A DNA stretch of 64,000 nucleotides, taken from NCBI GenBank assembly GCA_019635875.1, contig JAHBYP010000003.1, positions 620,001 to 684,000 on the forward strand, written 5' to 3'. The notes under the pieces are model-generated. The model saw nothing but the letters and a program-made list of their open reading frames with translations, did not search any database and had not been told where the DNA came from. Positions within the stretch are counted from its first letter, which is position 1. Every line of letters starts with the position of its first letter. Below, in pieces: positions 55,825-57,295 of this stretch. The position numbers and the translations under genes were made by a program. This DNA is from Alphaproteobacteria bacterium (GTDB taxonomy: Bacteria > Pseudomonadota > Alphaproteobacteria > Reyranellales > Reyranellaceae).

Positions 55825-55936
55825 TTTCCTTCTCCCCGCGAAGGCGGGGAGAAGGTGCCGAGCGCCAGCGAGGCGGATGAGGGGCTTTCTCGCGCAACAC
55901 CCGGCGATGTCGTTGTTGACGCGCCGCGAAGCCCCT

Positions 55937-56114
55937 TGTGTATCGGGAAAGGACTAGAGTTCGCGAGCGGACGGCCGTTAGCAGCGGCCGTCCGCCGCGA
56001 AGCAGAGACCGTATTGCCCCTAGGCCCGAAGACCGTGGATGAGCATGGTCCGCTTCGTGTCTTCCTCGACCCGAACAGTTGAACGGGCTGCGAGCCCGAA
56101 CGAGCAAGGAAGGG
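55937..56114 (+). ncRNA. Candidate IS110 bridge RNA (left-end non-coding region)
   Basis: The 178 bp before the transposase carry a perfect 11-bp stem GCGGACGGCCG / CGGCCGTCCGC (55967-55995, 7-nt loop) and a second hairpin around GGGCTGCGAGCCC near 56084. IS110-group elements are known to encode a structured bridge RNA in the left non-coding end that pairs with donor and target DNA. Assignment here is from position and structure only; loop-to-target complementarity was not resolved. Confidence 0.5.
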
Positions 56115-57080
56115 ATGACGAAGATGGCACGGAACGAGGGTCTTGTCGGCCTCGATGTCTCGAAGGAATGGCTCGATTGTCACGTGCTGCCGAGCGGCGA
56201 GACGTGGCGCATGCGCAACGACGCGGCGGGCCACGCCGCGCTGATCGAACGGCTGGGCGCGCTGGGCGTGCGGTGCGCGGTGCTGGAAGCCTCGGGCGGC
56301 TACGAGAAGACGGCGGTATCGGCGCTGTGGGCGGCCGGGCTGCGGGTGCGGGTGGTCGATCCCAAGCGGGTGCGCCACTTCGCCAAGGCGCTGGCTCGGG
56401 CCAAGAACGACCGCATCGATGCGCAGGTAATCGCCCGCTTCGGCCTGGCCACGGCGGACGATCGCGACACGACGATCCTGCCCGATGCCCGGCGCGCGGC
56501 GCTGGGCGAGCTGCTCGCCGCGCGCCACGATCTGCTCGATCACCGCACGGCGCTGCGGCAGCAGCAGCGCAGCATCGCCGCCGATGTCGCCCAGATCATG
56601 GCCCAACCGCTGGCGGCGCTCGAGCAGGCGCTCGCCACGCTGGACGGCAAGATCGCCGAGGCCATCGCCGCGCACACGCCGTTCGCCGCCTTGGCGCGCC
56701 GCCTCGGCAGCGTGCCCGGGCTGGGGCCGGTGGCGATCGCCGCCCTGATCGCCTGGCTGCCCGAGCTCGGCAAGCTCTCGCGCCGCAAGCTGGCGCGTCT
56801 CGTCGGCGTCGCGCCCTTCGACGACGACAGCGGCCCGCGCCGCGGCGTGCGCGTCATCCAGGGCGGGCGCACCAAGCTGCGCAACGTGCTCTACATGTCG
56901 GCCATGGTCGCCGCCACCACCGCCTGCAACCCGACCCTCAACGCCCACTACACGGCGCTGCGGGCCAAGGGCAAGGCCGCCAAGCTCGCCATCATTGCCT
57001 GTCTGCGCCGCCTGCTCGGCATGCTCAACGCCATGGTCGCGCGCGACCAGGACTGGCAACCCGCGGCGCTCGCCGCCTGA
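56115..57080 (+). CDS. IS110-family transposase (DEDD/serine recombinase type)
   Basis: 321 residues from ATG 56115 with AAGGA upstream. N-terminal RuvC-like DEDD domain: GLDVSKEWLDCHV (Asp), LEASGGYEK (Glu), KNDRIDAQVIARFG (two Asp). C-terminal Transposase_20 domain: VPGLGPVAIAALIAWLPELG and GVAPFDDDSGPRRG, which contains the conserved Ser, then RTKLRNVLYMSA. Full length and apparently intact. Confidence 0.93.
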   Translation: MTKMARNEGLVGLDVSKEWLDCHVLPSGETWRMRNDAAGHAALIERLGALGVRCAVLEASGGYEKTAVSALWAAGLRVRVVDPKRVRHFAKALARAKNDRIDAQVIARFGLATADDRDTTILPDARRAALGELLAARHDLLDHRTALRQQQRSIAADVAQIMAQPLAALEQALATLDGKIAEAIAAHTPFAALARRLGSVPGLGPVAIAALIAWLPELGKLSRRKLARLVGVAPFDDDSGPRRGVRVIQGGRTKLRNVLYMSAMVAATTACNPTLNAHYTALRAKGKAAKLAIIACLRRLLGMLNAMVARDQDWQPAALAA

Positions 57081-57128
57081 GCCTGCCGAGCTGTCGGCGC
57101 AATGCGCCGACGGCTTGCCGAGCCCAAC

Positions 57129-57215
57129 GAACCGGGGCAGCGGCCGGGTCAAGGCCGTAGCCGCGCCAGCGGGCGCGCGAACGCGCGCGCCTTGACGCGG
57201 TCGCTGCTCCGGTTC
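57129..57215. repeat. Large inverted repeat in the IS110 right end
   Basis: Arms of 27 bp (57129-57155 and 57189-57215), GAACCGGgGCAGCG... versus complement with three mismatches, around a GC-rich 33-bp loop. It sits downstream of the transposase and would form a strong stem-loop in RNA or extruded DNA. A smaller perfect hairpin GTCGGCGC-aat-GCGCCGAC precedes it near 57092. Confidence 0.85.
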
Positions 57216-57295
57216 ACTCAACCTCTCCACAATACAGTTGCTCATCCGGCGCTTCGCGCCACCTTCTCCCCGCCTTCGCGGGGAGAAGGATAAGC

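Follow-up and report, generated by a model that had tools for sequence, protein, structure and literature searches.

The window, the whole 64,000-nucleotide stretch of alphaproteobacterial DNA analysed here, contains an intact IS110-group insertion sequence of 1304 bp that very probably moves by the bridge-RNA mechanism of IS621, a reading to which we assign a probability of about 0.93. The mechanism is already known (Durrant 2024), and the element is a further IS621-like member, set apart as a variant by the structure of its right end. The element, its core and the repeat that it interrupts are located as follows:

55937..57240, plus strand: IS110-group element without its core, delimited by an identical second copy and by the junctions
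55935..55936, plus strand: left copy of the CT core
57241..57242, plus strand: right copy of the CT core
55928..55936, plus strand: left half of the interrupted target, GAAGCCC-CT
57241..57290, plus strand: right half of the interrupted palindromic repeat, CT-CATCCG and its hairpin
55875..55885, minus strand: facing intact repeat head, GCCCCTCATCC

The boundaries proposed in the first-pass annotation (55937-57240) are borne out by one further copy in the same genome (G000:C7), identical at 1304 of 1304 bases, since on either side of the CT core the flanks of the two copies diverge and have only repeat sequence in common. The count of two refers to a genome of 17 contigs, in which copies at contig ends may escape notice. 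Both copies lie at the same position of the same palindromic repeat, GAAGCCC-CT-CATCCG. At the left junction GAAGCCC and CT are followed by TGTGTATC, and at the right junction ACAGTTG is followed by CT and then by CATCCG; the core is therefore CT and the empty site GAAGCCC-CT-CATCCG. Such a short core at the insertion, without a long target duplication, is a trait of the IS110 group. The earlier proposal that the target could be reconstructed exactly also proved correct: CCCCTCATCCG, as inferred, heads a repeat present about 140 times in the genome. In the 6.2-Mb genome the word GCCCCTCATCC was counted at 136 places, of which 67 are forward and 69 reverse; most form facing pairs separated by about 55 bp. 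The same word read backwards occurs a single time, and GAAGCCCCTCATCCG occurs 140 times when at most one mismatch is allowed.

The region has a single IS110 transposase open reading frame:

56115..57080, plus strand: DEDD/Ser transposase, with an alternative start at 56124

Its product matches PF01548 (E 1e-19) and PF02371 (E 1.7e-13), the DEDD domain and the C-terminal domain with the catalytic serine that are found in the IS110 group, and among solved structures it is related to those of IS621 (8wt6, with E 1.8e-19 for residues 6-298) and ISCro4. By alignment, its D, E, D and D and the Ser of a DSG motif lie opposite D11, E60, D102, D105 and S241 of IS621, all of which are essential residues (PMC11208158). 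The full DEDD and C-terminal Ser motifs that had been read from the sequence at first pass are thus intact.

The predicted bridge RNA occupies most of the left end and has the following parts:

55967..56114, plus strand: predicted bridge RNA, both putative ends approximate
55967..55995, plus strand: 5' stem-loop of 13 bp with a 3-nt loop (predicted fold)
56007..56050, plus strand: target-binding loop, closed by GACCGT/ATGGTC, with a small inner hairpin at 56023-56034
56014..56021, plus strand: left target guide TTGCCCCT, of which the GCCCCT part matches the target
56037..56043, plus strand: right target guide GGATGAG, the complement of CTCATCC
56070..56114, plus strand: donor-binding loop, closed by CCC/GGG, with an inner hairpin at 56084-56098
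56075..56081, plus strand: left donor guide ACAGTTG, identical to the right terminus at 57234-57240
56104..56108, plus strand: right donor guide GCAAG, which pairs with CTTGT (core and left terminus; one G-T pair)

None of 200 shuffled sequences folds as well as the left end (z -4.2). A folded left end had been claimed before, with a perfect 11-bp stem and a second hairpin; the folding stands, and the stem is 13 bp long in the predicted fold. Searches of Rfam at the gathering and at a relaxed threshold gave nothing credible for either end of the element and, as no family matches, the test of the bridge RNA rested on the comparison of relatives. The 5' stem-loop, the target loop and the donor loop are common to the six left ends nearest in layout, in whose consensus 16 of the 34 pairs are changed on both sides in at least one sequence, and 83% of the cells pair, compared with 74% in shuffles and 40-55% with slid partners. 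The structured left-end RNA of the IS110 group, with a 5' stem-loop and two internal loops, is thus predicted here with the support of covariation. The 3' strand of the donor loop, GCAAGGAAGGG (56104-56114), doubles as the probable ribosome-binding site of the transposase, an overlap kept in the compared relatives, and because of it folding of the left-end RNA could hide the translation start.

Relatives with transposases approximately 34-47% identical were gathered from genomes and plasmids. Their ends and targets were defined by alignment of copies for multi-copy elements in three other genomes (3, 5 and 5 copies), and by the same terminal motifs for single-copy elements. The core is CT in every element with ends so defined, and the donors vary on ACAGTTG-CT-TGT. 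Each left end was scored against each insertion site (n=18), using windows of 8 bases for the left guide and 7 for the right guide, limited spacing and half credit for G-T pairs. Seventeen of the 18 elements rank their own insertion site first, the exception being the relative Deino. The guide scores sum to 231.5, compared with a mean of 185.7 (sd 4.5) and a maximum of 206.5 in permutations, none of which was as good in 100,000, a figure that overstates the statistical weight because the permutation takes related elements as independent. An earlier scoring of 12 elements gave the same answer. Differing guides, in short, match differing sites across relatives. Moreover, the last seven bases of the right end recur exactly in the element's own left end in 18 of 18 cases, in five versions (ACAGTTG, ACGGTTG, ACAGTCG, ACGGTCG and ACAATTG). 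Loops that are complementary to target and donor, and that covary with them, are found in the IS110 group, and the bridge-RNA candidate of the first-pass annotation is supported by this comparison, as its loops fit the target (GCCCCT/GGATGAG) and the donor (ACAGTTG/GCAAG) and track the site across the 18 elements. Neither of the two outcomes named there as refuting was observed, the single further copy in the genome being inserted in the same repeat and not in unrelated sequence. In the window element the two 5'-most of the eight bases of the left target guide mismatch the target (TT vs AA), and the right donor guide has only five matching bases, one of them in a G-T pair.

Scanning genome contigs with the single transposase protein gave only distant matches (24-40% identity), which were left out, and a search for an Azospirillum transposase in the order of G141 found none. 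Among the relatives, genome G726 has four copies of one element (L105, L106, L108 and L109), which have the left target ACGCCC-CT in common and differ somewhat to the right of the core; its donor guide, ATAGTTG, and its right end, ATGGTTG, have both moved away from ACAGTTG.

Could the target instead be recognised by the protein alone, the left-end matches being due to chance or remnants? Palindromic repeats could be protein sites, and one short match is weak when taken alone, given that 13 of 3000 random CT sites score as well as the site of the window element. However, in 18 elements a change of target goes with a change of guides, and a change of right terminus with a change of donor guide, which makes recognition by protein alone very improbable. 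An equally small chance attaches to a guide RNA lying in the right end, as in the IS1111 group. With its 160 nt the right end is long, and no part of the element folds more strongly, but it has only short hairpin loops, none of which fits target or donor; all guide matches of the 18 elements fall in the left end, and both the left-end layout and the specificity are retained in relatives whose right ends measure about 15 nt. Assignment to the IS1111 group by a guide RNA downstream of the transposase gene was also rejected, the guides being upstream and the right end being free of guide loops. No repeat pair joining the two ends of the element, comparable to the 7-17 bp sub-terminal inverted repeats of the IS1111 group, was listed by a general repeat scan.

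According to the preferred reading, movement guided by a left-end bridge RNA as in IS621, an element that is presumably still active would be excised as a circle, its right and left ends being joined around the CT core. The joined ends would constitute a promoter, from which a bridge RNA of about 150 nt would be transcribed from the left end and bound by the recombinase. The first internal loop (GCCCCT, GGATGAG) would pair with the two strands of the host repeat GAAGCCC-CT-CATCCG, the second (ACAGTTG, GCAAG) would pair with the joined ends of the element, ACAGTTG-CT-TGT, and the RuvC-Tnp recombinase would exchange strands at CT. The putative promoter has two boxes, both sequence matches only:

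55955..55960, plus strand: -10-like box TAGAGT
57238-57240 + CT + 55937, in the circle: -35-like box TTGCTT

In 20 of 20 elements, as judged with our own scoring matrix, the right end joined through CT to the left end gives a better sigma-70-like match than the inserted left junction, and in the window element no promoter-like match is as good as the one that would arise at the joined ends of the circle. Two types of putative promoter were distinguished. In the type that includes the window's, the -35 box TTGCTT spans the core, with the -10 box some 18 bases inside the left end; the other type has TTGAC in its right end and the -10 box some 2 bases inside the left end. Excision reconstitutes a promoter in IS621 (PMC11208160), and the match at the junction agrees with that published reconstitution. 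On the linear sequence, a consensus scan detected no promoter and one weak terminator-like site on the minus strand, at about the level of shuffles.

The element shares with IS621 of E. coli (PMC11208160, PMC11208158) the DEDD/Ser recombinase, the CT core, insertion in a palindromic repeat and the layout of the left-end RNA, here predicted, in which a 5' stem-loop is combined with a target loop and a donor loop (PMC11208160); where IS621 has a promoter across the joined ends, it has a promoter-like sequence match. It differs in the repeat and the guides, in a right target guide of 7 bases compared with 4 pairs in the IS621 structure, and in a right end of 160 nt with a conserved Y-shaped structure. 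The IS1111 group and its seekRNA (PMC11187229) are likewise RNA-guided DEDD transposases, but the guide RNA of our element is upstream of the transposase gene. Compared by description, ISPpu9 (PMC8450116) is another member of the IS110 family that inserts in palindromic repeats and has structured RNA regions on both sides of the transposase gene; in contrast to the element studied here, its Ssr9 is a small RNA with its own promoter.

Two structures were identified in the right end, which has a z of -9.0 against shuffles:

57081..57123, plus strand: first right-end hairpin, directly after the stop codon, with a similar hairpin in relatives
57129..57215, plus strand: conserved Y-shaped right-end structure

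The 27-bp inverted repeat reported earlier for this end does have arms of 27 nt, with one mismatch, and these lie inside a larger structure, previously unrecognised, which is a conserved three-way junction of its own. An 87-nt Y-shaped palindrome is common to ten related right ends, with 93% of cells paired, 15 of 35 pairs changed on both sides, and a covariation score of 0.41 (0.13 in shuffles and 0.03-0.08 with slid partners); an alignment of the right ends by sequence only recovered the same Y core. The outer arms vary freely while keeping their pairing, and the inner GTCAAGGC/GCCTTGA and the two side hairpins largely keep their sequence. No description of this structure was found in bridge-RNA papers of the open-licence literature; according to one survey, 26 of more than 350 listed elements have long noncoding regions on both sides (PMC11187229). 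The Y-structure is lacking in many relatives, whose right end measures about 15 nt, and on the transposase tree, where it may have arisen once or more than once, its distribution needs 2 changes, compared with 7.2 in shuffles. A host-genome repeat as the source of the right end was rejected, the only match elsewhere being one of 39 bp at 82%.

A model of the Y-structure, built from five right ends, was used to search 385 Alphaproteobacteria, 76 near genomes and 398 genomes of the phylum. All matches of at least 64 bits are IS110 right ends, including eight outside the model set (one in G040, one in G141, two in G603 and four in G726); the G040 contig starts at the structure, and only the right terminus is visible. 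Six matches at 46-58 bits have mixed contexts. One of them, L088, is again an IS110 right end, and another, L079, comes after a different transposase that is IS110-like; L086 and L087 are preceded by a relaxase-like gene, and L078 and L080 stand free. Four of these six (L078:1501-1585, L080:1501-1584, L086:1501-1581 and L087:1501-1581) have the inner GTCAAGGC/GCCTTGAC motif with unrelated, near-perfect outer stems, away from any intact IS110, two of these structures being situated 29 nt after the relaxase-like gene. The motif may be wider than the IS110-group element studied here. A pattern scan of viral contigs gave six matches. Only one, L102, fits the model, and its end resembles that of an IS110 right end; the remaining five, unmatched by the model, were discarded.

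Regarding its role, a subset of alphaproteobacterial IS110 bridge-RNA elements might possess, in addition to the bridge RNA, a second covarying module at the right end, with the GTCAAGGC/GCCTTGAC core, that takes part in the bridge-recombination cycle, for example as a mark of the transcript end or as junction-like DNA bound by the recombinase; we regard this proposal as tentative. The position of the Y-structure between the stop codon of the transposase gene and the junction, together with its constant orientation, suggests a transcript end or an insulator, and the most likely reading, itself put forward with reserve, is that, in the transposase transcript, it forms a 3' end or an insulator shielding the junction promoter from transcription. 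The main alternative, which we consider unlikely, is that it acts as DNA, a cruciform or junction-like site for the RuvC-like recombinase in excision or circle formation. The long inverted arms, the conserved inner sequence, the distance of 15-30 nt from the recombining end and the RuvC-like fold of the enzyme are consistent with this, and the stem counts of 5 G-T to 2 A-C, too few to weigh heavily, do not clearly favour RNA. On the other hand, the orientation relative to the transposase is constant in all IS110 cases, though these are related, two copies of the motif lie 29 nt past the stop codon of a relaxase gene, a 3'-UTR position, and many relatives without the Y-structure seem complete. 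Improbable in our estimation is a small RNA acting on the left-end RNA or on transposase expression, as proposed for Ssr9 of ISPpu9, which is encoded downstream of the transposase gene on the same strand (PMC8450116). In its favour, the inner CCTTG could pair with CAAGG of the donor loop, but this complementarity covers five bases, CAAGG is common, and the region has no promoter-like match on the linear sequence. As the part of the system amenable to a direct deletion test, the Y-structure offers a way into these questions.

The guides of the relatives also fit repeats that are abundant in their hosts. The target word of the G052 element is found 62 times in G052, 98 times in the genome of the window and not at all in two distant hosts, and that of the G355 element 148 times in G355, compared with 0-3 times in five other genomes. 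With an intact element, two identical copies and about 140 candidate sites, the element is a clear natural instance of targeting by a bridge RNA beyond the enterobacterial example, and the fit of the relatives' guides to other host-abundant repeats makes the group useful for studying the co-evolution of guides and host repeats. The genome of the window has at least two abundant families of palindromic repeats, AGATCCCTCGCTGCG (98 places) and GCCCCTCATCC (136), and counts of the window target vary widely among close relatives, two genomes of one genus having 20 and 154 places. The genome of the window also has four copies (L003-L006, on G000 C1, C2, C4 and C8) of a second, distant IS110-like element, with 32% identity over part of the protein, and three of these copies have a GATCCCTCGCTGCGCTCGGGATGA repeat at one flank.
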